Assembly: GCA_026709225.1 (NCBI GenBank)
Contig: JAPOTJ010000030.1
Span: 1-55,801 of the forward strand
DNA length: 55,801 bases
Reading direction: 5' to 3'
Origin: Gammaproteobacteria bacterium
GTDB taxonomy: Bacteria > Pseudomonadota > Gammaproteobacteria > Pseudomonadales > Azotimanducaceae
A program made the position numbers and the translations under genes. This document shows positions 12,909-26,530 of the stretch, one piece after another (the stretch's first letter is position 1; every line of letters starts with the position of its first letter). Under the pieces are notes generated by a model that was not told where the DNA came from, did not search any database, and was given only the letters and a program-made list of their open reading frames with translations.

Positions 12909-15900
12909 GGTCTATCCCCGCATGTGCGGGGAAGCCACCGGCACAGCGCCGGCGTCGGTGCGGTAGTAGGGTCTATCCCCGCATGTGCGGGGAAGCCGTA
13001 ACGGCGCAAGGGTGACCTAGGTCGTAATAGGGTCTATCCCCGCATGTGCGGGGAAGCCGAGATCAACCAAGCGATTATGCTCGAATTTAAGGGTCTATCC
13101 CCGCATGTGCGGGGAAGCCCGCAGGCTCCCATGTCCCTGCCGACTCGGACCAGGTCTATCCCCGCATGTGCGGGGAAGCCTTATTCCTTGGGAACTTGGT
13201 CTATCTTCTCGCAGGTCTATCCCCGCATGTGCGGGGAAGCCCGTGAGCGTGTATGTTCGCTGTGAATTAACTACGGTCTATCCCCGCATGTGCGGGGAAG
13301 CCCGTAATACCCTCCGCACGGATTGAGCGCAATGAGGTCTATCCCCGCATGTGCGGGGAAGCCGCATACAGCACTTTGCCGCATTCATCCAAGACGGGTC
13401 TATCCCCGCATGTGCGGGGAAGCCACGGCGACAAAAGACCTGACCCAACGAGCCACAGGTCTATCCCCGCATGTGCGGGGAAGCCTCGGATGTGAGCCAA
13501 CCGGCGGCGATCTGTTGGGGTCTATCCCCGCATGTGCGGGGAAGCCCGTGAGCGAATGGCAGTACATGAACATCTGCTAGGTCTATCCCCGCATGTGCGG
13601 GGAAGCCTACTGACGGCATTCATTCTCAGCGTCTCCGAGAGGTCTATCCCCGCATGTGCGGGGAAGCCATAGCGGTCTGTAAGCAATCGGAGCAAGTCAA
13701 GGGTCTATCCCCGCATGTGCGGGGAAGCCTCAACAACGTTACGCACGGCGGCAGTCACAGTGGGTCTATCCCCGCATGTGCGGGGAAGCCCAATTCGAAG
13801 CTTAGAGCCAGCTATACGCGCAGGGTCTATCCCCGCATGTGCGGGGAAGCCAGGACAAGATGGCTGGTGAACGTCCCCTGCCAGGGTCTATCCCCGCATG
13901 TGCGGGGAAGCCAGGCTTGCCTATTTTGTGCGGAATGGTGTAGACGGTCTATCCCCGCATGTGCGGGGAAGCCAGCTTGGTCTTGCGGCTGCTGGCCTCC
14001 CGCCCAGGTCTATCCCCGCATGTGCGGGGAAGCCTACGTCGATCGCCGTACCATGGTGCTTCGGTGCGGTCTATCCCCGCATGTGCGGGGAAGCCCGTAA
14101 TACCCTCCGCACGGATTGAGCGCAATGAGGTCTATCCCCGCATGTGCGGGGAAGCCGCGGAGCCATTATCAACCTTGCGGGTATCTTGGGGTCTATCCCC
14201 GCATGTGCGGGGAAGCCCGAAGCCACGCAGTCGTGCCGATCTCTACCGCGGGTCTATCCCCGCATGTGCGGGGAAGCCCTGCAAAGGCTGTGGAGGACGC
14301 GCCGAAATAAGGGTCTATCCCCGCATGTGCGGGGAAGCCGGAGCATTTGCGAGCTGTCGCAAGGCTGTCTAGGGTCTATCCCCGCATGTGCGGGGAAGCC
14401 ATGGCCAGCGTTGCCGAGGCAGGAAAGGTAATGGGTCTATCCCCGCATGTGCGGGGAAGCCGAGGAGCTCGCTTCGCTGATGAATCACCTGTCGGGTCTA
14501 TCCCCGCATGTGCGGGGAAGCCGATCTCCACCTGGAGACGCGCCACCATATCTCGGGTCTATCCCCGCATGTGCGGGGAAGCCTTCTTGATCGCGGCCGC
14601 GATATCCTTCGTCTGCGGTCTATCCCCGCATGTGCGGGGAAGCCCGAACCAAGACGGCGCAGGAGTGAAGGTGCTTCGGTCTATCCCCGCATGTGCGGGG
14701 AAGCCCGAACTAATTTTGCGATCAGCCATTGTTATGAGGGTCTATCCCCGCATGTGCGGGGAAGCCGGGGTCTTTCTGAAGACCACGCTTGGGAAGTCGG
14801 GTCTATCCCCGCATGTGCGGGGAAGCCATCCACCGAGGGGCGGAAGTCTCAGAACCACGCGGTCTATCCCCGCATGTGCGGGGAAGCCTCAGGGGGATGA
14901 CGGCGCAACCAGTCAAGGTAAGGTCTATCCCCGCATGTGCGGGGAAGCCCAATCGCGGGAATTTACCTCAGAATCTCAAGCGGGTCTATCCCCGCATGTG
15001 CGGGGAAGCCGGAATCCCAAAATGCGTAGAGCCATGCCCGTTGGGTCTATCCCCGCATGTGCGGGGAAGCCGACCTCGATGTCGGCCTTCAGCTGCCCGT
15101 GCTGGGTCTATCCCCGCATGTGCGGGGAAGCCCTCGTGCGTATGTTTTCGTACCTGTTGACATGGGGTCTATCCCCGCATGTGCGGGGAAGCCTCTGCGC
15201 ATTAGGCGGTGGGGGGGTATCATCTGGGTCTATCCCCGCATGTGCGGGGAAGCCGCTCAGGTCTGCGCTGGCTGTCTATTGCTCTTGGGTCTATCCCCGC
15301 ATGTGCGGGGAAGCCGAGCAGTGGATGCCTGAAGCCGACGGCATGACGGGTCTATCCCCGCATGTGCGGGGAAGCCGCGTCGATGAAAGCGTCCGCCGAC
15401 GCGTCGTAGGGTCTATCCCCGCATGTGCGGGGAAGCCGCCTACGCGGACCAGAGCAGCGGCGAGCCGTCGGGTCTATCCCCGCATGTGCGGGGAAGCCAC
15501 GCTTAGTGTTTACTCCGTACCAATTGCCTTGGGTCTATCCCCGCATGTGCGGGGAAGCCAGGTTTGTCATCTGGTTTCGAGTCCGAAGGTAGGGTCTATC
15601 CCCGCATGTGCGGGGAAGCCCACTGCGGCACTACGGCTTGCCATGCCGGATGGGGTCTATCCCCGCATGTGCGGGGAAGCCGAGACCCGCTCTCCAAAGG
15701 CGAACTTCAGCGCGGGTCTATCCCCGCATGTGCGGGGAAGCCCCTCAAGCGTGACGACGGCCTCGATCATCTGCGGGTCTATCCCCGCATGTGCGGGGAA
15801 GCCGTTGATGTGAAGCCGCCGCTGAAGCTCGCCGAGGGTCTATCCCCGCATGTGCGGGGAAGCCGTGGGCGTGGTTCGCGAGGTCGGGGGGTGTTCGGGT

Positions 15901-16108
15901 CTATCCCCGCATGTGCGGGGAAGCCTAGGTCGCCCCGCCCAGCTCGCGGGTCGACCCGGGTCTATCCCCGCATGTGCGGGGAAGCCTCTGCTATCGGCAT
16001 GAACCGGTCGCGGAAAGTGGGTCTATCCCCGCATGTGCGGGGAAGCCGGCCGCCCGCTGTGGCGGCTTCAGTGCGGCTTGGGTCTATCCCCGCATGTGCG
16101 GGGAAGCC
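12909..16108 (-). CRISPR. Type I-E CRISPR array, 53 repeats and 52 spacers
   Basis: Repeats are 28 nt and begin on the plus strand at 12909, 12970, 13031 and so on to 16081. Every start I checked falls on an exact 61-nt grid (52 x 61 = 3172 nt), giving 33-nt spacers. The repeat contains the palindrome CCCCGC/GCGGGG around a 4-nt loop and, read on the minus strand, ends GGGGATAGACC, matching the I-E repeat class (E. coli ends GGGGATAAACCG). Transcription is therefore on the minus strand, with the leader at 16109-16168 beside cas2, the newest spacers at the high-coordinate end and the oldest near 12937. I found no degenerate repeat, even at the distal end. One spacer occurs twice (13303-13335 and 14096-14128). 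Long plus-strand open frames through the array are artefacts of the repeats. Confidence 0.99.
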
Positions 16109-16168: not shown

Positions 16169-16468
16169 TTAGAGCTTGCGAACTAGCAGTATCCCTTCCA
16201 CATCGCAAATTTCCTTGGGGGGATCGCCAAGATACCTCAGGGCCAGTCCTCCTGCGCACGAACTATCCCTCCAAATCATTGCTATCGCGCCACGACCAAG
16301 CGCTTCATACCAATCCCGTACGACGTTCCAAACACGCTCCCTCACGCCTGCGGAAAGGTCCGGCGACACATATACACCCGGTGCAACCTCAAGCAGTACC
16401 GAAGCCAGAAACCCTCGATACCTAGCCTCGACATCGCGCGTTACGATCACAGTCATCGGCATCTTCAT
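16169..16468 (-). CDS. cas2e: CRISPR-associated Cas2e
   Basis: A 99-aa Cas2 of the I-E subtype and part of the Cas1-Cas2 integrase. The ferredoxin-like strand MTVIVTRDVEARYRGFLASV and the segment LLEVAPGVYVSPDLSAGVRERVW are characteristic of I-E Cas2. The likely start is MKMPMTV or MPMTV, overlapping the end of cas1 by 4 nt. It is the last gene of the Cascade/adaptation operon and ends 60 nt before the first CRISPR repeat. Confidence 0.95.
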   Translation of the reverse strand: MKMPMTVIVTRDVEARYRGFLASVLLEVAPGVYVSPDLSAGVRERVWNVVRDWYEALGRGAIAMIWRDSSCAGGLALRYLGDPPKEICDVEGILLVRKL

Positions 16469-17355
16469 TTCTTGGCTTTAGAGGGATCTTCGAATAGCTT
16501 CTTAATCCGGGAAATCATGTCAGGAATGATGTTCTGACGAACAAGCTCTTGTCCGATAGCTTGTCGGGTAACTCGTTCAATATTTAGCGTAGGCGAGTTG
16601 CTCACTTGTTTTGCGCATTGGAATGCCGTGGGGATGGTCAGGCCAGTCCGATACAGATCTGAGATATCCAACACAAAGGACTGGCCCGGATCCTCGTGAA
16701 TAAATCCCAATTGGGGCACTGTAGATGTTGCCGAAACCGCGATGGCGGCAGCCGCTTCAACTGCGGTGGAAGCATGGTTCAACGCTTGGTTCGCGAAGTC
16801 GCTACTTTCGGGCTTTGACCGATCATATTTCCTGCCCTTCCATTCGATTCCGATTTGACCTGCAATGATCTGATAGCTCTTTTTCATGCGCGATCCCTCG
16901 ATACCGCGAAGCACAGAGATGTCCCGGTGCGGGAGTACTTGGCCGAAACGCCAAGCATACATGCGACGGGCGATATCAAGACGACTCTTGGTGTCTGCCC
17001 AGCAAGCAGCTTGTCGTCTTGCCAAAGAGGATTTGTCGGAGACTAGGGGTGGGGCGGTGTAGAGACGAACTCCATCTTGCCCCACAGCCGCCATAGCGGT
17101 GCCATTTGATGCCATAAGCCGGAGCGCGTCGTGGCTTACAGTTGAGCCAGGACCAAGCAGAATCATAGAAATATTTTGGAAGGGTACGGTGTAGTGGCCG
17201 GGAGCTAGCTCTCTGGTTTCGGCAATCTTGACTCTTCGCTCGAATATTAAGGTACCGTCCTGTACAGATAGATTGCCGCGAGATAACCAGAGAAGCCCCG
17301 ACCTGTCCGCATGAGGGATTCGCGCGGATTCTAGTCCAAGACGCCCCTTAAGCAT
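16465..17355 (-). CDS. cas1e: CRISPR-associated Cas1e integrase
   Basis: Catalyses spacer integration. The metal ligands are visible: Glu in LRGIEGSRMKKSY (about residue 150), His in GFIHEDPG (about 218) and Asp in FVLDISDLYR (about 230). 296 aa is the normal length. The start ATG at 17355 is preceded by GAGGT. It lies 30 nt downstream of cas6e and overlaps cas2. All active-site residues are present, so adaptation should be functional, in keeping with the long, regular array. Confidence 0.96.
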   Translation of the reverse strand: MLKGRLGLESARIPHADRSGLLWLSRGNLSVQDGTLIFERRVKIAETRELAPGHYTVPFQNISMILLGPGSTVSHDALRLMASNGTAMAAVGQDGVRLYTAPPLVSDKSSLARRQAACWADTKSRLDIARRMYAWRFGQVLPHRDISVLRGIEGSRMKKSYQIIAGQIGIEWKGRKYDRSKPESSDFANQALNHASTAVEAAAAIAVSATSTVPQLGFIHEDPGQSFVLDISDLYRTGLTIPTAFQCAKQVSNSPTLNIERVTRQAIGQELVRQNIIPDMISRIKKLFEDPSKAKK

Positions 17356-17385
17356 CGGTCAGGTGAACCTCGTAGCTAAAGGTAG

Positions 17386-18177
17386 TCATCTATTGAAGGG
17401 CCGAGTGCCCGGTGGGCGTAATAGGAGCATTCCATATCCGTAGGACTTATGACGTCCGACTCCATCCCTGAGGCATTGAGTAAATTTCATTGGATCCGAA
17501 ACGATAAAGTTGCCGTTAAGCACCGCATCAGGCCCTTCAGATGCTCTGCCTCGGCCTCGTGCGATGCGGGTACGCGAGAACGATGCGACCCTGAAGGTGT
17601 TCGGACAGATTTCCGCGGAACCAGCAAGTCTCTCAGTAAGCCACTTGAAATAGGATGATTCGCGGCTCGGTGTTTTAGAACGCTTGCTCTCTTCTGTAAG
17701 CTTCCAACCCTCGGAGTCATACGAGAGTAGCTCGGATCTATGGGCGTCTATCTCTGCGCCTTTTCTTAACAGTCGCCTCGACTGACTGTCCTCTACATCA
17801 TGCCGCAGGCGACGGACGGGACGGACTCTCACATCAAACCCGAGGCGCTGGCCGTCTGCGAATTCAGTCCGCAATGGTTTCGAACGCAAGTTACGAGGAT
17901 CAAGCACTTCAACTGAATCTGGGAGGCCCGATATCTCTGCTACCGATGTCGCTTTCTCGTGATCGTAGTCCGCATAGGCGTAAAGCGATCCAGTCACTCT
18001 TCGTTGACCAGAAAACATGCGAAAAGGCTTGAACGCACCCTGACCAAACATCTCACTGAGCAGTATGTGTAGCGCGAACCCTTCGTCAAGGTCTCCACGC
18101 CAGACAAGCCCGCGTTGCCCTGCCCACTTGTTGAAAGCACGCATCTCGATTGGCGCATGAATTAGGAATGTACTCAT
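17386..18177 (-). CDS. cas6e: Cas6e (CasE/Cse3) pre-crRNA endonuclease
   Basis: Cuts pre-crRNA at the base of each repeat hairpin and stays bound in Cascade. The C-terminal glycine-rich RNA-binding loop is GVGRHKSYGYGMLLL. The N-terminal segment around DEGFALHILLSEMFG has His37 in the position of the family's catalytic His. At 263 aa it is longer than E. coli Cas6e (199 aa); the extra length is a charged central segment (about residues 115-175). It overlaps the end of cas5e (ATGA). It would also be the enzyme that processes the repeat-like hairpins upstream of cse1. Confidence 0.93.
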   Translation of the reverse strand: MSTFLIHAPIEMRAFNKWAGQRGLVWRGDLDEGFALHILLSEMFGQGAFKPFRMFSGQRRVTGSLYAYADYDHEKATSVAEISGLPDSVEVLDPRNLRSKPLRTEFADGQRLGFDVRVRPVRRLRHDVEDSQSRRLLRKGAEIDAHRSELLSYDSEGWKLTEESKRSKTPSRESSYFKWLTERLAGSAEICPNTFRVASFSRTRIARGRGRASEGPDAVLNGNFIVSDPMKFTQCLRDGVGRHKSYGYGMLLLRPPGTRPFNR

Positions 18178-18887
18178 TCGGGCTTGGTTCCTTCAATACG
18201 TCCTTCGTAAACGATTCGGGAACCCCCGTGCAATCCAGTGCGCCAATTCCTCTCGTCAGATATATCAAACTTTGTGTAAGAGCCTTCTGATCCCTCGCGT
18301 CCAGACCAAATGACTCGAAAATCCTGCTTTTCTTCGGAAAGGATAGATTGAAGTGCCAAGAACGCACTTGGAGATTTGACTATGCCTTCATATAGCGGCC
18401 TTGAAGGAAGGCAAGACTTTCTGCCAATGAACAGTGGTCTGGCAGGCTTCTGTATGGCCTTTGCAACTTCTTCCAAGTTGGGCTGTTTGTCCTGTGGGTC
18501 GAGTCGCAGCACCACAGAATGCTCAATATCCGAAAGATATTCTTTCCATTGCTGATAAGAACCAACGTATGAGGCAAGTCCTCCGGCTCTGCCGATTGGC
18601 ACGCCGGTCGTCGACCACACTTTTTCACCTTTCTCCAGCTTCGCGGTTTGGTAGTCCATCATCCTGTCAGATGGAGTCAAGCACTTGCGAGCGACACCAA
18701 ACACGATACGGTCCTGTAGCGCTTGATGTTCCTCGCGCATCTGTCGGCTCCAGCCAAGGGCATTCGCAATTAAGCCTGTAAACATCGAAAGTGACGGAAA
18801 CTCACGGGTGACTCGCTGTGCATCTATGCTTTCGCCCCCGAAACTTACAAGAGGGGCGGCTAGCTCCATGTGAAGCCAAAGCTTCAT
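18174..18887 (-). CDS. cas5e: Cas5e (CasD) Cascade subunit
   Basis: Binds the crRNA 5' handle. MKLWLHMELAAPLVSFGGES is the typical Cas5e start, with the family segment FPSLSMFTGLIANALGW and the C-terminal RRIVYEGRI-like end (SRIVYEGRIEG). I chose the ATG at 18887 because it overlaps the cas7e stop as ATGA; the frame extends upstream inside cas7e, but that part is not Cas5-like. About 237 aa, near the family's usual length. Confidence 0.93.
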   Translation of the reverse strand: MKLWLHMELAAPLVSFGGESIDAQRVTREFPSLSMFTGLIANALGWSRQMREEHQALQDRIVFGVARKCLTPSDRMMDYQTAKLEKGEKVWSTTGVPIGRAGGLASYVGSYQQWKEYLSDIEHSVVLRLDPQDKQPNLEEVAKAIQKPARPLFIGRKSCLPSRPLYEGIVKSPSAFLALQSILSEEKQDFRVIWSGREGSEGSYTKFDISDERNWRTGLHGGSRIVYEGRIEGTKPE

Positions 18888-20017
18888 GCGCTGTCGCCTT
18901 GAATTGCCTTTGCGACCCATTGGGACAGTTTCTCAAGATCGACATGCTTATCATCCGGTTCGGAAGCCTGACTGAAGCTCATAACACGCCGGATCTCGTG
19001 ATCTCCATAGCATTTATCGATCTGTTTGATGTATTTTTGAATTTCTGAGACCGCCTTGTCGAGCGTTGGTTCGCAGGGCGTTCTGAACGCCTCCGCCAAG
19101 CTGCGCGGTTGTCGTTCACCAGCCTCGGCCATCATCCACCCCGCATAGCCAAATGGCGCGGTAGAGCCTAGTTTCGCTCCAGGGGAAACGGTTGCGATAA
19201 GCCGTATCAGGCATGCAGCTACCTCGCCAGCGAGGCTCACATCATCGCCAAGATTGTTGATCAACGTATCTCGGTCTATGACCACATACCCGTAAAAAAG
19301 CCCTGAACTCAGCTCTGTTTCGCCAATGTGGTCTGCACCAGCATCATCCTCAACCTGCTGCAAGTCATCAACGACTGTGAAATAGTCGCTTTCCGTTTGT
19401 TCGGCATGAACAGTGAACGCGTGCGCTACATATATCGCTGCATCAATATTCGCTTCGACATCTGATGTCACCATTCTTCCGAAAAGTGCTGATGCCATAC
19501 CGCCGGGCAGTTCACAATTGCTTCGTAGTGTCTTCATGTTGTCCCGATATTTCTTCCGCCATTCTTCCGCAGATTTCTTGGCGTCTTCTGCACTGCTCAA
19601 GTTCCCTTTCGCGATTTGCCTGGCTTCATTGGCGAGGTAGGTAATTTCCGGCTGCCCAAGAAGTAAGGGCTGTCGAGACTTTATGCTGGTTCCCTTTTCG
19701 CCGTACACAGCGAGCTGAAACTGTTCCTCGATTGCCTCGACGACATCCTTGTCGACCCCCATATCTAATAAGGGCTGAATAACCTTCCTAGTTACCGTCT
19801 CTCTTGATCGAACAGCCGCGGCGTCGGTTGAGATGGCTTCGATCGCATTGATGTCTTTGGCTACCCTCCAATGCCGCTTGAGACATTGTGAAGAGATTCG
19901 TGTTCTGGATTTGCCCCCGTAAGAGATGCGCTTGGAAAGTCCCGAGTCGTCTCGATTCAGCAGCGTTGCAGAATAGCCGTGAAGACTATGGATTTGAATG
20001 AACTTGGCGTGTGACAT
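18884..20017 (-). CDS. cas7e: Cas7e (CasC/Cse4) Cascade backbone
   Basis: Forms the six-copy backbone along the crRNA; its thumbs flip out every sixth crRNA nucleotide. The N-terminus MSHAKFIQIHSLHGYSATLL and the motif RISYGGKSRTRISSQCLKRHWR are diagnostic. The ATG at 20017 is preceded by the ribosome binding site ACGGAGA; the frame opens 123 nt further upstream but overlaps cse2. 377 aa is the usual length. C-terminal residues overlap the cas5e start. Confidence 0.94.
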   Translation of the reverse strand: MSHAKFIQIHSLHGYSATLLNRDDSGLSKRISYGGKSRTRISSQCLKRHWRVAKDINAIEAISTDAAAVRSRETVTRKVIQPLLDMGVDKDVVEAIEEQFQLAVYGEKGTSIKSRQPLLLGQPEITYLANEARQIAKGNLSSAEDAKKSAEEWRKKYRDNMKTLRSNCELPGGMASALFGRMVTSDVEANIDAAIYVAHAFTVHAEQTESDYFTVVDDLQQVEDDAGADHIGETELSSGLFYGYVVIDRDTLINNLGDDVSLAGEVAACLIRLIATVSPGAKLGSTAPFGYAGWMMAEAGERQPRSLAEAFRTPCEPTLDKAVSEIQKYIKQIDKCYGDHEIRRVMSFSQASEPDDKHVDLEKLSQWVAKAIQGDSA

Positions 20018-20052
20018 CAGATTGTCTCCGTAAATTATGTTTTGGGTCGTGA

Positions 20053-20586
20053 TTAATCCACAGATGGTTCGGCTTCTATCTGTTCTTTTCGCTTTTGATC
20101 GGCAGCTTGCGCCTGATAGTAGTCCTTTGCAACTTTCCAAGCGAACTTCTGTTTGTTCGAGAGGATTAGGTATGCTAAATCGCTCAAATTGAACTGCGCG
20201 TGTTCTGCTTTCGATGCCAGCCTTCTACAGATACGGGGAAGCAGGATTCTGCGCTCCTTTCTAGGTGCCGATAGCAGCGCTGTAAGACGTAATTCCGAGA
20301 TGCATGCAGAATGGAGCACAGTTCCCATTCCTATCTCGGACTGATGCGGGTCCACCTTCTTACCACCCTTCGGCACAAGTATTGCTATGCATTGAACGAT
20401 AGCTGCCCAATCATCTACGGGATTGAGGTCGAGGGTTGCGACAAGTTTCCAAAAGGCCGCGACTCCTTGCCCTTCTAAAGGGCCTCGTCGCAGAGCTGCC
20501 AACGTGCCCGATCCTGATTTTGAAACACATCTTGATAGGTTGCGTATTATCTTTGTGGCAGATTTTTTTTTCTTGAGGTTGGTCAC
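20053..20586 (-). CDS. cse2: Cse2 (CasB/Cas11e) small subunit of Cascade
   Basis: The small helical subunit (two copies per Cascade) that stabilises the R-loop. The family features are AALRRGPL near residue 32 and the helical body. The start is a GTG at 20586, 6 nt past the cse1 stop. Codons 5-8 contain an uninterrupted run of nine A on the coding strand (Lys-rich), a site where polymerase slippage or frameshift mutation is likely. 177 aa, similar to E. coli CasB (160). Confidence 0.9.
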   Translation of the reverse strand: MTNLKKKKSATKIIRNLSRCVSKSGSGTLAALRRGPLEGQGVAAFWKLVATLDLNPVDDWAAIVQCIAILVPKGGKKVDPHQSEIGMGTVLHSACISELRLTALLSAPRKERRILLPRICRRLASKAEHAQFNLSDLAYLILSNKQKFAWKVAKDYYQAQAADQKRKEQIEAEPSVD

Positions 20587-20592
20587 TTAAGA

Positions 20593-22164
20593 TTACCCCT
20601 GTGTGAAGATTTTTGGGTCATCGCTGAAGGTGCTTTTGGGACTTCTAATCAAGCCATGAAACGCTCTTTGCGCTACGACTTTCGACCGTAATCTTAGTGC
20701 CGAAGAGCACGAAATGGTTGCGATAGCATCATTCAAAATGCTCTCGCCTTCGTCGATGAGTCGGCACACAAACTGTCTGCGAACGTTTAGCCTTTCGCTC
20801 TCTGCTGCTTGGAACCTCTCGTCAAGTTGTTCAAAGAAAAGACCATCAGCAAAATCATCAAGTTTGTTGCCGAACTTGTTGGCTAGTTCTCTGCCTTTGT
20901 CGGATGATTTATCGAACCTGCCACCACTTGCGGCTACAGCGATTCCCCTCCTGAGTGCCTTGGATACTTCGCCAATTTCTTCCATAAGTGACTCTGAAAC
21001 CAGAGATAAATCTCTGTGAGCCGAGGTTTTACGGAATAGAATCGGGGCTGTCTTTCCAGAGAAAAGGATGTTGCGGCGTTCATGGTAGCCTTCAGTTTTG
21101 CCTTGACCAGCGGCGATCCCGCGAGCAATCACACGCCATATTGACTCCGGTGTGCTGTCAACCTCCATTGAACGCGGCTGTTTGAACTTTGAGTGGTCGA
21201 GAAGGACCTCTCGGAGCTTCTTATAGGTAAAGCCAGCACCAGAAACTGATAATGCTTTCGGTTCCTTTTCTGCAATAGACACGGGTGCCCAAAAATCGCC
21301 GATGTTGCCTTTGGCATCACTTGCCTGTATACGAGCAGTCTTGGAGCCAGCCGTCATCGCCGTCCACGAATTTCCAGCAGGCAGAAAACGAACTCGTCGA
21401 CAAATTTCAATGAAATAGGGGTCAAGCTGGTTAAGACTTAGCGATTCCTTACCGTTCCAAGTTTGCAGCCAGAGTAACCTGACACCATTTGATCTCCGAT
21501 AATAAGGGTACTCTTGAAGCAGTTTTTCTCGCCCGTCAATCATTCTTCGAACATCGTAGAACAGGCAGGCACCGCAGCGTCCTTTGGCTGGGTAGAGACC
21601 CATGCTAGGGCGGGAAGAAAATCCACCATTCATGCGTGCGATGCCATAGTTGCCTTGCCCTAGGAATCCAGCCATCGTCTGCAAGCTGATAAGTGCGAAT
21701 ATCCAATCCTCGGCCAGCGGCTCCCGTGCAATGCTCTGCTTCACATCGTGATTTTTTGAAGTGACTAGAATATCTAAGTCGTCAGGTGAGCAACATTGAC
21801 CCCTGTAGTCCCTTCGGTCTGGTCCGGCAGGTGGCTGCATGAATGCAGGAAGCCTTGTATCGTCAACGACAAGCCGCCAAGGTTCGTCTTGCGGGAATTT
21901 TTGGGTCAGGTTGCGCAGAAGACCGCGCCACGCTTCCGGGCATCTCGGGATGTCTGTGCTCCTAGATTCATGCAAGGCCAAAGTCGCTAGTTGCGCCAGA
22001 AAAGCATGCCATGCATGCCGTTGATGCGGTCTTAGTGAGGGGAAGGACTCAATTTCATCATCAGACATCAGGGCAAGCACTTCGCAGAGCGATACGGTTT
22101 GAACCTGTCCGTCGGCTAGCTTGGCTCGAAAGACTCGATCTTTGAGGATGTTGGGTGCTTGCAT
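20593..22164 (-). CDS. cse1: Cse1 (CasA/Cas8e) large subunit of Cascade
   Basis: Recognises the PAM and recruits Cas3. Family-typical segments include SLCEVLALMSDDEIESFPSL, HQRHAWHAFLAQLATLAL and FSSRPSMGLYPAKGRCGACL. 523 aa matches the family (about 500). The start ATG at 22164 has only a poor ribosome binding site of its own and lies 2 nt past the stop of a short open frame and 22 nt past a repeat-like hairpin, so its translation may depend on what happens in that leader. First cas gene downstream of promoters P1/P2. Confidence 0.94.
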   Translation of the reverse strand: MQAPNILKDRVFRAKLADGQVQTVSLCEVLALMSDDEIESFPSLRPHQRHAWHAFLAQLATLALHESRSTDIPRCPEAWRGLLRNLTQKFPQDEPWRLVVDDTRLPAFMQPPAGPDRRDYRGQCCSPDDLDILVTSKNHDVKQSIAREPLAEDWIFALISLQTMAGFLGQGNYGIARMNGGFSSRPSMGLYPAKGRCGACLFYDVRRMIDGREKLLQEYPYYRRSNGVRLLWLQTWNGKESLSLNQLDPYFIEICRRVRFLPAGNSWTAMTAGSKTARIQASDAKGNIGDFWAPVSIAEKEPKALSVSGAGFTYKKLREVLLDHSKFKQPRSMEVDSTPESIWRVIARGIAAGQGKTEGYHERRNILFSGKTAPILFRKTSAHRDLSLVSESLMEEIGEVSKALRRGIAVAASGGRFDKSSDKGRELANKFGNKLDDFADGLFFEQLDERFQAAESERLNVRRQFVCRLIDEGESILNDAIATISCSSALRLRSKVVAQRAFHGLIRSPKSTFSDDPKIFTQG

Positions 22165-22166
22165 AG

Positions 22167-22433
22167 CTACCTACCAAGCAATGGAACCCCGCAGTTGCGG
22201 GGAGGGCGACCATTCGAAAGATCAACGATGGCACGCGACGGACTATCTCCACTGGTAGGGGAGGACGTTTCATATGTATGGCATTGCGTTACTACCATTT
22301 CGGATACGTTTAGCTCAGAGATCTCCACGCTGATGCTGTCCTGTAGCCTAGAGTGTTCCCAAAAGCATTCAAATGATCTGCTGCTACTGGACTCGTGAGT
22401 GAGGGTTGTTTGGGTTTTTTGCTCATATTTCAT
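22167..22433 (-). CDS. Possible 88-aa leader ORF upstream of cse1
   Basis: An open frame beginning MKYEQKTQTTLTHESS with a strong ribosome binding site (AGGAGG, 9 nt before the ATG) and ending 2 nt before the cse1 start. The product is Ser/Thr-rich and resembles no family I know. Its last third is encoded by the mini-CRISPR (22180-22266), so amino-acid conservation there would be surprising. It could be a leader peptide coupling translation to cse1, a small effector or toxin-like product, or a chance frame. The position and ribosome binding site argue for translation; the composition argues against a folded protein. Confidence 0.4.
   Translation of the reverse strand: MKYEQKTQTTLTHESSSSRSFECFWEHSRLQDSISVEISELNVSEMVVTQCHTYETSSPTSGDSPSRAIVDLSNGRPPRNCGVPLLGR
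22180..22207 (-). repeat. Degenerate CRISPR repeat, unit 2
   Basis: 28 nt. The palindrome CCCCGCA (22187-22193) and TGCGGGG (22196-22202) is identical to the array repeat, with the central TG changed to GT. The handle end has diverged (GTTCCATT instead of GATAGACC). A Cas6e hairpin is therefore preserved but no functional 5' handle follows, as expected for the last unit of a one-spacer array. It ends about 22 nt before the cse1 ATG. Confidence 0.8.
22240..22266 (-). repeat. Degenerate CRISPR repeat, unit 1
   Basis: 27 nt. Read on the minus strand it ends GGAGATAGTCC, where the array repeat ends GGGGATAGACC, so the would-be 5' handle differs at one base. On the plus strand the stem is CTCC/GGAG instead of CCCC/GGGG: the T248-A262 pair replaces C-G, a compensatory change. 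There is one A-G mismatch and a 5-nt loop. Confidence 0.75.
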
Positions 22434-22482
22434 CGGCAATCGCCTCCTGTTTGTATTCTAAGCCTGCTGAAGAGTGGTCGCG

Positions 22483-22509
22483 ATTATATCGCATGACTCA
22501 TGAATTCAA
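22483..22509 (-). promoter_or_regulatory. Promoter P2 of the Cascade operon
   Basis: Perfect -10 TATAAT at 22488-22483 (minus strand) with a suboptimal -35 TTGAAT at 22509-22504 and 15-nt spacing. The -10 sits inside the palindrome GCGATTATATCGC (22480-22492), which abuts a second palindrome, CATGACTCATG (22492-22502). The candidate RNA-guided target overlaps the -35. Confidence 0.6.
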
Positions 22510-22525
22510 CCATGGCACGCGAATT
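22506..22525 (-). promoter_or_regulatory. Candidate Cascade/CreR target site with AAT PAM-like triplet
   Basis: Minus strand 22522-22506 reads TCGCGTGCCATGGTTGA; the mini-CRISPR spacer (22238-22222) reads TCGCGTGCCATCGTTGA. 16 of 17 match. The three bases 5' of the protospacer are AAT (22525-22523). The site lies just downstream of the predicted P1 start and over the P2 -35. Confidence 0.8.
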
Positions 22526-22536
22526 TGTAATAAAGA

Positions 22537-22566
22537 GTTATATTGAGATTGGGCATTGAATGTCAA
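22537..22566 (-). promoter_or_regulatory. Promoter P1 of the Cascade operon
   Basis: Consensus -35 TTGACA (22566-22561), 18-nt spacer and -10 TATAAC (22542-22537) on the minus strand, about 20 nt past the cas3 stop. The predicted start is near 22530. This is the best sigma-70 promoter I see in the window and would make cse1-cas2 independent of cas3 transcription. Confidence 0.75.
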
Positions 22567-22586
22567 GTGTCAGCGTTCGCTTCACG

Positions 22587-25274
22587 CTAACCTTCTGCCC
22601 GAAATAGCCCGGATGCCGAATAGGTGAAACAGGTCTGTCCTACTGACAGGGACACGCCGTTCGAGTCTCTTTGTACTGTTGCGTTCTCAATGTCATCCTT
22701 GCTAGGTAGCCTGTTCCGAAATAGATGGGCTGGAATATTAAACGTTCGCACGTCGTTACCGAACGGTCCTATGATAGATGCATCCAATTCAATACGAGGA
22801 CCATCTTCACCAAGCCGTGTACGGATGTGCCCATCATCTTGCGGAAACTCTATTCGCGAATCGAAATCGCAAGCACGGTCGAGGGAAAAGGCTTTCGCAG
22901 CGCTGACTTCAGCGCATCCTCGACCGAGTATTTGTTGCTGGTGCTTCTCCCATCCCTCACCAAGCTCTTTGACTCGATCTCTGACAATGGAAGAGTGCGT
23001 TGCATGTTCCACCAAGAAGCGATTCATTTCGGGAATTTTCCAAAGAGGGTGCTGCTGGATAATCTGTTGGGTCAGCTGCGTATGCAATAGATTTCTGTAG
23101 ATTCCTCCGTCGCCTTGCTCGGAGGTCCCGAGCCCATACTTCATAAGTGAACCATTGAGGCCGATCTCTAACCCGTCTGAAGGAGTCAAGATAATGCAAC
23201 TGGCCTCTTTGCAAACTCTTGGTCTCAGATTCTGAGGATGCCTATGCAGTCTTCCAATCCTTTGCAATAGAACATCCATAGGACATAGGTCGGTGATCAA
23301 AATGTCTGCGTCTATATCAAGGGACTGTTCCAACGTCTGAGTTCCGATAACAATGTTCCCTCTTTGCAATGACTGGCGTTTTGTCCCCATGACTTCCTCA
23401 ACCTTGTCATCGAGTAGCCGCCTGTCTTCAACGGCGAACCGACTGTGGTGAAGGGTTGAGACACCATTGACTCTCAACAAGAGTTCTTCGGCATCCTGAT
23501 CAGCTACAGCGTCGAAGACTTGTTGCGCCGCAGCTACCGTATTTCGTATCACGAGCACCGCTACGCCCCGCCGGGCGTACGCTATCGCATAAGAGGCGAC
23601 GTCAGAAGCGTTGTTCATCCATGGTTTTAGACAAACAGATACCTCTTTCTTGTAGCCCGTGAAGCCGATGGGTTTCGTCACTATATCGCGCCCATACACC
23701 TCGGTGAGCGCGGGATAGGAGGCTGCACAGGCCTGATCAACGTTCTCATCAAGCGTATCGAAATCGGATGACCTTGGACGGCAAAACTGTGCTCGAACCT
23801 CCGCAGCGAGCGTCGCAGACATGAGCATCGCATAGCCTCCTGCTTGTAGATGCCCCTCCAACAGGGTTCGCAGGAGTTCTGTCATATACGGGTCGCTTGA
23901 ATGAACTTCATCAACCACCAGAAGACTGCGCGCTAATGAAGCATGCCTCAGGTGCGCCCACTTAACTCTTAAAGCGCCAAGAAGAGTTTGATCAAGGGTG
24001 CCGACGGCCGCAGCTGCGCTCAAATAATGGCGAGCGCTCTCGGCCGCCCATCGCGCCTGCCTTTCCTGTTCATCGGGCTTGTCTTCCCAATACACTTGAA
24101 AATTCTCGATAGCACGGCCGACCTTTTCTTCACTGCCTACCCGAAGATAACCTGGAATCGCCAAGACTGTATCAAGCGCTGACTCTGCCGGAAACAGCTT
24201 CTTGAGTGCCAAATCCACACGCCCGTGAATTTGTTTGGCCGCAGCACGGGTTGGAAGGGCGAAGTACAAGCCGTCAACTCGACCAGATTGCCATAGGCGT
24301 ACAAATCTCATGATCGCAGCTTCGGTCTTCCCAGAGCCGGTTTCGCTCTCTAAGATAAGTAACTGAGTGTCTAAATGGGCTTTGGACACCGCTTTTTGAA
24401 TAGGTCGAGGCTCGACTTCGAATATTTCTTCAAATCCAACAGGGTTGCTGCGCGCGCGGAACTCTTCTCTGATGAGTTTGCGCTGTTCCAATAGACTCTT
24501 GGCTCGTTGTCGAGCAGTGTCTACGTAATCAATATCTCTGTACGCTTCAAACTCGAAAAACTCTTTTGCCGATCCAAGTTGGTCCGCCAGCGCCACCAAT
24601 CCGGCGAAAAAGTGTGCAAAGGGAGGCGACGAAGGTAGGGGAGGCCCTGCTTCGAATGCCTGAGGGTACCATCGGCGCATAGCGTCTCCTAGATCCTTTG
24701 CAGCACACACTGGATCATAGTTCCCGAATGCTTGCCATATCGCAGGCGAACGATGGGTATTTTTCGCTTCGGTCATCGGCCGTCCGTGATGTGACCATGA
24801 GGCGAAGAGTAGGGGTTCAACAGCTTCTCCCCAATCAACTATGGCATGTAACCCAAGCGCGTCGACAAAGCGTGGTTGACCACAAATGAGGGCGGATTCT
24901 TCAACGTGCCCCATTCTCGGCGGCTTAAGGTTCCCCTTCATGCTCGCACGAACTTTGAATTGAAAGCCTGAGTTTAGTTTCCCGAGATCATGAAGGAAGG
25001 CAAGGACGAGCAGGCGCTCTTTGGTTGTTTCGCAGATCTCTTTGATTCCAGCGGTATGGATGACTCCGCGCCGGATATTCGGTTGTTCAAGTAGTAATTC
25101 AAAACATGCGGCGACATCTGCGCAGTGGTGTTCAAGTCTGTGAAAAGAGCCATCCGTTTGATCGAATTTGCCCCATGCAGGGAGGATGTCGTCTTCCACC
25201 ACGGGCATCTGATCTTCCAGACTCTGAATAATAGCGACACCCTTACCGTTCTGCATTCTCATCAGCCCGTCCAT
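22587..25274 (-). CDS. cas3: Cas3 helicase-nuclease
   Basis: Target-degrading nuclease-helicase recruited by Cascade. The N-terminal HD nuclease domain shows HHCADVAAC and FLHDLGKLNSGF; the SF2 helicase domain shows Walker A ESETGSGKTEAAI, the DEVH box (VVDEVHSSDPYM), LMSATLAAE and motif VI QRIGRLHRH. 895 aa is close to E. coli Cas3 (888). The start is uncertain among Met at 25274 and the nearby in-frame Mets (25262, 25256); 25262 has GGACGGG upstream. It is transcribed away from a divergent vapB gene 60 nt away, and separated from cse1 by a 422-nt regulatory gap. Confidence 0.95.
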   Translation of the reverse strand: MDGLMRMQNGKGVAIIQSLEDQMPVVEDDILPAWGKFDQTDGSFHRLEHHCADVAACFELLLEQPNIRRGVIHTAGIKEICETTKERLLVLAFLHDLGKLNSGFQFKVRASMKGNLKPPRMGHVEESALICGQPRFVDALGLHAIVDWGEAVEPLLFASWSHHGRPMTEAKNTHRSPAIWQAFGNYDPVCAAKDLGDAMRRWYPQAFEAGPPLPSSPPFAHFFAGLVALADQLGSAKEFFEFEAYRDIDYVDTARQRAKSLLEQRKLIREEFRARSNPVGFEEIFEVEPRPIQKAVSKAHLDTQLLILESETGSGKTEAAIMRFVRLWQSGRVDGLYFALPTRAAAKQIHGRVDLALKKLFPAESALDTVLAIPGYLRVGSEEKVGRAIENFQVYWEDKPDEQERQARWAAESARHYLSAAAAVGTLDQTLLGALRVKWAHLRHASLARSLLVVDEVHSSDPYMTELLRTLLEGHLQAGGYAMLMSATLAAEVRAQFCRPRSSDFDTLDENVDQACAASYPALTEVYGRDIVTKPIGFTGYKKEVSVCLKPWMNNASDVASYAIAYARRGVAVLVIRNTVAAAQQVFDAVADQDAEELLLRVNGVSTLHHSRFAVEDRRLLDDKVEEVMGTKRQSLQRGNIVIGTQTLEQSLDIDADILITDLCPMDVLLQRIGRLHRHPQNLRPRVCKEASCIILTPSDGLEIGLNGSLMKYGLGTSEQGDGGIYRNLLHTQLTQQIIQQHPLWKIPEMNRFLVEHATHSSIVRDRVKELGEGWEKHQQQILGRGCAEVSAAKAFSLDRACDFDSRIEFPQDDGHIRTRLGEDGPRIELDASIIGPFGNDVRTFNIPAHLFRNRLPSKDDIENATVQRDSNGVSLSVGQTCFTYSASGLFRAEG

Positions 25275-25334
25275 CGAAACGCGGAACGGTGTATCTTACT
25301 CTCTGCTTACTTTGCGACTGAAAGCAAATTTACC

Positions 25335-25610
25335 ATGTCCCTGACGCAACCACTGACAACCACCCTGTCGAAAAAAGGGCAAGTCATCCTACCTAAATCT
25401 ATTCGTCAGGCACTAGGCTGGATGGTTGGTACCCGTCTCATGGTCGAGAGCACCCGTGATGGCGTATTGCTCAGGACCGAGACTGTATTTCCAGAAACCA
25501 ATCCAGAAGATGTGTTCGCCAGCTTGTCCTACGACGGCCCACCGAGGTCGCTTGAAGAAATGGAGGTTGGCATATTGGCCGAAGCCAAGCGAAGGTATGA
25601 GGGCAATTGA
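25335..25610 (+). CDS. AbrB/MazE-type antitoxin (VapB-like)
   Basis: A 91-aa protein with an N-terminal swapped-hairpin AbrB DNA-binding domain (TTLSKKGQVILPKSIRQALG) and a C-terminal tail likely to bind the toxin. Such antitoxins repress their own operon. The ATG at 25335 is taken because family members start a few residues before TLSKKGQ; an open frame extends upstream into the cas3 start but has no such features. Its toxin partner immediately downstream is broken, so the antitoxin is now solitary. Confidence 0.88.
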   Translation: MSLTQPLTTTLSKKGQVILPKSIRQALGWMVGTRLMVESTRDGVLLRTETVFPETNPEDVFASLSYDGPPRSLEEMEVGILAEAKRRYEGN

Positions 25611-25990
25611 CACTAAGGTCTTTGTCCGCTATCTGACCGGAGACGATGCGAAACAGTCGGCAAGAGCAATGGCCGTCATTGACTTGGGGAGCGTCTTTGT
25701 GGGCACGGCGGTTGTTCTGTAGAGCGAGTGGGTGCTGCGCAGCGTCTATGGATTTGACCGCGATGCGGTCGTCAATTCTCTAAGAGCCTTCTTAAGTCTG
25801 CCAAGCATTTCTGCTGAGACTCCACGTTTGCTCATGGAGGCGCTCGACCGAGCGGAGGAAGGCGTGGATTTCGCAGATGCGCTGCATCTTGGTGTCTCCG
25901 CTGGTTGCGATGCGATGCTTACGTTAGTGCAACTCTCCAAGTCGGGAACACGAACAGCCATCACGCAGCCATCGCAATCCTGCGTTTCCA
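25597..25990 (+). pseudogene. VapC-like PIN toxin, inactivated
   Basis: The frame starts at ATG 25597, overlapping the vapB end, and reads MRAIDTKVFVRYLTGDDA (PIN Asp in the AIDT start). An in-frame TAG at 25720-25722 follows VFVGTAVVL. The same frame continues SEWVLRSVYGFDRDAV and VDFADALHLGVSAGCDAML, the family's central and C-terminal acidic motifs. Near 25925 the frame is lost again: the +1 frame there encodes NTNSHHAAIAI, similar to the normal VapC end. One nonsense codon plus one frameshift make it a dead toxin. Confidence 0.85.
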
Positions 25991-26530
25991 TATCGCCGCG
26001 GGCGGCCTTGGGTCATTTCGATCATAGGCGCCCAGCGCTTCAAGATACTGGTCTTTTTCTTCTGGCGTCCGGGTTGCTGTGTCCATAATCGGCAGATCCA
26101 TTCTGTGCAGCAGTTCAAACAAGAAAAGCCGTGTGACCCGGCCATTGAAGTCTTCAAAGGGGTCGATATAAAGAAAACGACCTTCGGCGAAGGCCAAGTC
26201 TCTTGCTGTCTGATCGGATTGTCCTGCGATCGGGCTCGCTAATCGGGTTTCGAGGTCAGCTAGCGAATTCGCGCATGAGAACCGGCACGCGCCAGTGCGG
26301 CGGAGGGATATGAAAGCCAACTTGGACTTCTTTGACTCGCCATCGACCAGATATATCTGGCACGAGGTCTCCACAAATCTGCCGATGCAACTCCAATAGC
26401 AGCTTCTCGACAGGGAGCGCTGCAAAATTTCGCTGAGCTATATCGAGTTCGGTGAAGCTGACCTGTTCCGCAAGAAGCGGCGCAAGCTCTTGGCAAGTCA
26501 GGATGCCAAATTCGGTTTCGATACATCGAG
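25961..26530 (-). pseudogene. Fic-domain toxin, frameshifted
   Basis: Two adjoining minus-strand frames together encode one Fic-like protein. The first (about 26530-26256) has VSFTELDIAQRNFAALPVEK and HRQICGDLVPDISGRWR and then stops. The second (from about 26270) gives ADLETRLASP, FAEGRFLYIDPFEDFNGRVTR and a normal C-terminus. A frameshift lies near 26260-26275. The Fic motif reads DPFEDFNGR, so the catalytic His of HPFx(D/E) is Asp. No clear start codon is visible for the first frame. Both lesions indicate loss of AMP-transfer activity. Confidence 0.8.

Follow-up and report, generated by a model that had tools for sequence, protein, structure and literature searches.

A mini-CRISPR in a type I-E Cascade leader is a predicted guide to the promoter region of its own operon

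A mini-CRISPR, composed of two degenerate repeats around a 31-nt spacer, is present between cas3 and cse1 in the leader of a type I-E Cascade operon and is predicted to send Cascade to that operon's own predicted promoter region, likely repressing it as a CreR circuit. We put the probability of this reading at about 88%. The element lies in a contig stretch of 55,801 nucleotides (the window), and sequence comparison supports both the anatomy of the locus and selection on the guide-promoter pairing. Taken alone, this comparison points to a self-directed guide that is kept paired with its promoter, about 17 to 20 positions deep, in several phyla.

The window carries a type I-E cas locus, all on the minus strand (Table 1). 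The effector set beside the mini-CRISPR is complete, with cas3, cse1, cse2, cas7e, cas5e, cas1e and cas2e reaching the NCBIfam cut-off; Cas6e (17386-18177) matches TIGR01907 at 2e-09 and 38.1 bits, below the cut-off of 45.2, and so is a divergent member. The 422-nt gap from cas3 to cse1 contains the predicted promoter, the protospacer, the leader ORF and the mini-CRISPR. The main array is oriented as the cas genes, reading from 16108 to 12909 with the repeat handle ATAGACC. The base 3' of its 28-nt repeat, which in type I-E systems derives from the PAM, is C in 37, T in 9, G in 6 and A in none of the 52 spacers. One array spacer is duplicated (13274-13365 and 14067-14158, coordinates including repeats).

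Table 1. Features of the cas locus in the window, in minus-strand order
Feature	Positions	Strand	Description
cas3	22587..25274	minus	TIGR01587 and TIGR01596 above cut-off; upstream of the targeted promoter
Predicted promoter P1	22537..22566	minus	TTGACA (22566-22561), 18 nt, TATAAC (22542-22537); 11/12 consensus bases
AAT in the PAM place	22523..22525	minus	Read from the sequence
Protospacer	22491..22522	minus	22522-22506 pairs with spacer positions 1-17 except 12; 15/15 scored
Possible promoter P2	22483..22488	minus	Perfect TATAAT; -35 poor by eye; upstream part under the protospacer
Leader ORF, 88 codons	22167..22433	minus	AGGAGG-type ribosome site; contains the whole mini-CRISPR near its end
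R1 degenerate repeat	22240..22267	minus	16/28 array-repeat bases; hairpin 22263-22247
Spacer, predicted guide	22208..22238	minus	31 nt by the 29-nt-repeat convention
R2 degenerate repeat	22180..22207	minus	19/28 array-repeat bases; stem 22202-22187, 6 bp
cse1, cse2, cas7e, cas5e, cas6e, cas1e, cas2e	16169..22164	minus	NCBIfam matches; operon predicted to be repressed
CRISPR array	12909..16108	minus	53 identical repeats GGCTTCCCCGCACATGCGGGGATAGACC, 52 spacers, period 61

R1 retains 6 of the last 7 bases of the array repeat and 10 of its first 21, and R2 retains 17 of the first 21 and 2 of the last 7. With 12/28 and 9/28 differences from the 53 identical repeats, respectively, both are unlike the near-identical repeats of an ordinary array. 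The R1 handle is ATAGTCCG (8 nt, 22246-22239), and the stems of R1 and R2 are 60 nt apart, against 61 in all 52 main-array intervals. Taken by itself, the R1 hairpin does not exceed its shuffles in stability (z -0.51) and the R2 hairpin does so only slightly (z -1.36), with the array repeat clearly more stable (z -4.47). The spacer RNA (22238-22208) is itself predicted to fold into a hairpin (whole element z -2.16), which might slow loading. A Cas6e cut is predicted after 22187, 3' of the R2 stem.

The guide start TCGCGTGCCATCGTTGA (22238-22222) differs from the target TCGCGTGCCATGGTTGA (22522-22506, minus strand) at position 12 only; the next mismatch is position 18, and matches beyond 17 are scattered. 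The complementarity of the spacer start to the predicted cas promoter region is limited, beginning beside AAT and ending at position 17. AAT stands 14 nt beyond predicted P1, and its T fits because T follows the array repeat in 9 of the 52 spacers. A stricter promoter scan of this DNA, with T required as the final base of the -10 box, reported no promoter, P1 included. Much of this arrangement had been described in an earlier sequence-only reading: the degenerate-repeat/spacer/degenerate-repeat element between cas3 and cse1, the seed match at 22522-22506 beside AAT (22525-22523) and the mismatches at position 12 and then 18 (29-nt-repeat convention) are all borne out. That reading had also given a 32-nt spacer at 22239-22208 and an RNA 5' end at 22247; the element stands, with its spacer corrected to 31 nt at 22238-22208 by the same convention and the predicted 5' end to 22246.

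The match was scored over guide positions 1-17 without 6 and 12, giving 15 scored positions with the PAM unscored. The guide scores 15/15 on its own region, compared with a maximum of 13 over 2,000 dinucleotide shuffles of the region and 12 over the 52 array spacers scored alike. Throughout the 3.09-Mb assembly (94.84% complete), all 15 positions are matched only at guide and target, with one place carrying one mismatch and five carrying two. By itself, the 17-mer repeat is unremarkable within 18 kb, where other pairs of similar length occur; its position after a handle and beside a PAM is what stands out.

Relatives were collected by a Cse1 search of genome contigs, yielding 85 loci, the best 80 of 128 plus five more from the window's family. 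The search rule required a 14-18-nt hairpin and a handle agreeing with ATAGACC in at least 5 of 7 bases, and the best match of the 17 bases after the handle was then sought in the 800 nt preceding cse1. Upstream sequence was usable for all of the 86 regions except L016. The handle likeness of R1 in relatives is selected by this rule and carries no evidence, and R2 was likewise sought as a hairpin. A candidate hairpin is present in 31 of the 86 loci (window included), 23 of which score at least 13/15. These 23, together with three at 12/15 accepted by their AAN (L017, L027 and L081, whose PAMs are left out of the PAM count), constitute 26 accepted pairs. Besides the window's own, 24 come from the best 80 (of 128) and one, that of L083, from the five family loci. 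The other five candidate-hairpin loci score below 12 or lack a PAM. A repeat-defined guide matching its own cas promoter region is accordingly found in 25 of the 85 relatives' loci (best 80 of 128 plus five of the family), and the relation recurs in distant relatives, bacteria of several phyla. The remaining 60 of the 85 hold no accepted pair by the hairpin and handle rule within 800 nt upstream of cse1; in 24 of these there is no room for one, as only 20-60 nt separate the end of the preceding ORF from the cse1 match. Cse1 occurs in 2 of 390 genomes of the order and 6 of 206 of the family, the window's own being in both counts, and no close relative of the window carrying the locus was found among them.

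Two loci were handled individually. For L014, the rule reported a minus-strand mirror pair (PAM CCA); the plus-strand pair, with an R1 element of 19 nt (over the limit) and the PAM AAC, was used in the promoter, layout and pattern counts. L074 contains a two-repeat element (6238 and 6476) with a seed of 11/15 and a site with AAC, which was left out of the counts and is perhaps a weaker case. Foreign guides placed in the searched regions score at least 13 in 9 of 3,780 trials, two of the nine being the near-identical pair L030/L031, and relatives' array spacers do so in 12 of 1,914. A chance repeat is ruled out by the shuffles, the array spacers and the foreign regions.

Type I Cascade flips out every sixth base of its guide. 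The 26 pairs carry a mismatch at position 6 in 24, at position 12 in 21 and at position 18 in 19, with none in any pair at positions 4, 5, 10 and 11. Positions 6 and 12 were unscored, with a neutral mismatch expectation of 75%, over which position 12 shows no excess (P 0.34); the pattern signal is the contrast with the scored neighbours, themselves partly selected by the requirement of 12 or 13 of 15. Position 6 lies slightly over the neutral expectation (P 0.026). The match fades past about position 20, and in the 17 long spacers read positions 19-31 agree with the target in 61 of 187 cells, close to background. AAN, also unscored, precedes 21 of the 23 pairs scoring at least 13, or 22 with L014 corrected, against a background of 4.9%, L003 with AGT being the exception. 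The target is on the cas sense strand in 26/26 loci, and promoter-like sequence (at least 9/12) stands near 17 of the 26 targets versus 13% of control places.

Comparison of homologous loci reveals compensated changes in guide and promoter at positions 3, 4 and 13 for L003/L008 and at 8, 13 and 14 for L027/L065, whose leaders are 75% alike. One-sided changes occur as well, at 9 and 12 for L003/L008 and at 12, 15 and 17 for L027/L065; of these, 9, 15 and 17 are read positions. Neither chance nor a protein operator would produce this picture. The comparisons strongly support guide-promoter pairing that is kept at the bases Cascade reads, as a Cascade-read guide requires. Covariation of spacer and promoter with 6, 12 and 18 tolerant had been predicted for relatives, and is seen in the window and 25 of the 85 relatives' loci; a spacer drifting freely away from its promoter, named beforehand as the refuting outcome, is not seen in the 25 paired loci, the other 60 yielding no accepted pair. 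The same data bear on a functionless, decaying self-targeting array, whose spacer was once taken from its own promoter and whose repeats are eroding. Degenerate repeats and a match running from the first spacer base next to a PAM, as a newly acquired spacer would have, are what such decay would leave, but an acquired spacer would match over its full length and this match stops at 17. With equally limited matches and compensated changes in many phyla, we regard decay as very improbable.

The 26 loci adopt two layouts. In 11 (the window, L003, L004, L007, L008, L010, L011, L014, L044, L081 and L083), the mini-CRISPR is downstream of its target on the same strand and so would form part of the Cascade message; the remaining 15 have it upstream of the target on the opposite strand. 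Opposite strands are difficult to reconcile with an ordinary DNA-binding regulator for which the two matching stretches serve as operator copies, an idea suggested by the two near-identical 17-mers that flank the leader. Moreover, the matched sequence varies by locus, the constant being its relation to repeat handle, PAM and six-base gaps, and we give the operator explanation next to no credence. The spacing between the R1 and R2 stems measures 49-50 nt in 8 loci, 55 in 1, 60-62 in 16 and 67 in 1, changing in steps of about six nucleotides (the loci singled out for these steps are L003, L014, L018, L033, L035, L041, L044, L081 and L083). About six nucleotides is the footprint of one Cas7 subunit. 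In the short-spacer loci, the match extends about to the end of the spacer.

An unusual feature of the window is that the guide lies inside the leader it would silence, within an 88-codon ORF, absent from the earlier reading, whose stop is 2 nt from the cse1 ATG. This ORF belongs to no NCBIfam family, and a protein database search with it returned only itself; such an ORF arises in 11 of 400 shuffled window leaders. L007, L011 and L014 likewise have an ORF, preceded by a ribosome site, that runs across the guide and stops shortly after cse1 begins; shuffled leaders give this arrangement in 85/400, 44/400 and 33/400 cases, respectively, each alone being weak evidence. The test, which covered all same-strand loci but L083, finds such an ORF in L004 and L008 too (shuffles 40/400 and 31/400) and none in L003, L010, L044 and L081. 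These ORFs, above all the window's, which holds the whole element, are the grounds for regarding the element as the coding sequence of a small cas-operon protein with incidental guide features. The controls exclude an incidental match, however, the leader ORFs of four relatives align only weakly to the window's (18-26%) while the guide-promoter relation persists, and the guide is present in other loci without such an ORF, all of which makes a purely coding role highly unlikely. The ORF may be a translation-coupling leader or may stand in the place of creT. A double reading of the mini-CRISPR, both as Cascade guide and as codons in the frame of a translated leader ORF stopping at the cse1 start, is a tentative proposal that we consider doubtful. 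If it were true, ribosomes and Cas6e would compete for one RNA, each guide-freeing cut would also break up the leader and end its coupling to cse1 translation, and this single RNA element would repress Cascade at the promoter as well as on the message.

Three relatives carry a tRNA-like stretch (L004 9597-9667, L003 9768-9843 and L008 9755-9830) that separates the cas promoter from the mini-CRISPR, in the place that creT occupies in CreTA. The L004 stretch scores as a tRNA (RF00005, 44.5 bits; tRNA-Ala by ARAGORN). Those of L003 and L008 align with it, neither reaching E 1 in Rfam; the former folds as a cloverleaf, and the fold of the latter is no better than shuffles. In the window, Rfam returns nothing up to E 1 over 20000-26000, and ARAGORN reports no tRNA.

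The contents of this interval raise the question of a CreTA- or CrePA-type addiction, in which the guide silences a toxic RNA or small protein from the interval that separates promoter and mini-CRISPR (in the window, the 88-codon ORF). The H. hubeiense operon, situated directly upstream of the cas operon, has creT after the promoter and before creA (PMC8501985, excerpt), and the order in the window is alike. The place of creT is taken by an ORF with a ribosome site in the window and by the tRNA-like stretches in L003, L004 and L008, and the guide is complementary to the predicted promoter shared by leader ORF and cas genes, as expected of CreTA and CrePA. Against this, the leader ORF has neither a known toxin family nor a relative in the protein database, the filling of the creT place varies between loci, and the mini-CRISPR is not downstream of its target in 15 of the 26 loci. 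We judge addiction quite improbable; it and autorepression can both hold, because promoter and transcript are shared.

Under the autorepression reading, the transcript from P1 or P2 would be a message whose leader carries the mini-CRISPR. Cas6e would cut at R1 and after the R2 stem, releasing an RNA from about 22246 to 22187 (60 nt). This guide would join Cascade, which would pair with 22522-22506 without reading 6, 12 and 18; the pairing would stop near position 17, too short for calling Cas3, and the bound complex would block initiation or early elongation. Array crRNAs would compete for Cascade, and anti-CRISPR proteins would relieve the block, as extrapolated from published CreR. Because cas3 is upstream of the promoter, such a circuit would set the levels of Cascade, Cas1 and Cas2 rather than of Cas3.

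For E. coli type I-E, 5 bp are reported as enough for binding and more than 18 bp as needed for interference and priming (PMC5904413, excerpt), and the 16 bases paired in the window are below this interference need. Spacers cut to 24 bp in Haloarcula repress without interference or priming (PMC10989794, excerpt). Cascade can repress at promoters, and weak off-target Cascade binding in E. coli left local expression unchanged (both PMC5904413, excerpt), so that binding alone is no proof of repression. The weak R1 hairpin, the spacer self-fold, the one-sided changes at read positions and the 60 pairless loci among 85 count against the circuit. The leader layout would form a one-transcript feedback loop, in which the Cascade message bears the guide against its own promoter, and natural guides of this kind could be used to gauge the pairing that Cascade needs for repression without calling Cas3.

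CreR, reportedly standing for the cas-regulating RNAs of Liu et al. (2023, Cell Host Microbe), provides the closest frame for this locus. CreR RNAs autorepress type I-B, I-E and V-A systems via partial promoter complementarity (PMC13131331; also PMC12737573 and PMC12948488; excerpts), which agrees with the background that the sequence-only reading had given for the same three types. The window shares the mini-CRISPR with limited cas-promoter complementarity, its function being a prediction, and sequence strongly supports the predicted assignment to the CreR kind, a kind already published. CreA of Haloarcula type I-B has a pair of degenerate repeats, the handle surviving in R1 and the stem in R2, and is encoded within the operon it represses (PMC8501985, excerpt); the asymmetry of the window repeats and the guide in the operon it would repress are alike. 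Experiments on CreA found bases 6 and 12 dispensable and the other ten of the first twelve needed, tied to pairing over 1-5 and 7-11 (PMC8501985, excerpt). CreA of CreTA is described as a type I-B element with a TTC PAM, a toxin RNA and pairing to 11, unlike the window, with type I-E, an AAN PAM, pairing to 17 and a leader ORF of no known toxin family.

Our literature search found no leader-embedded or ORF-overlapping type I-E case; Liu et al. 2023 and Shmakov et al. 2023 are outside its scope, so we make no claim of novelty. Shmakov et al. (2023, NAR) reportedly describe regulatory mini-arrays with spacers partly complementary to cas gene promoters. On this description, the window element shares their partial promoter complementarity, and it may fall within their set. 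The tracr-L of Cas9 is said to be a guide that turns a type II effector on its own promoter (Workman et al. 2021). Unlike that tracrRNA form, the window element is a two-repeat mini-CRISPR, and the feature common to both is an effector aimed at its own promoter.
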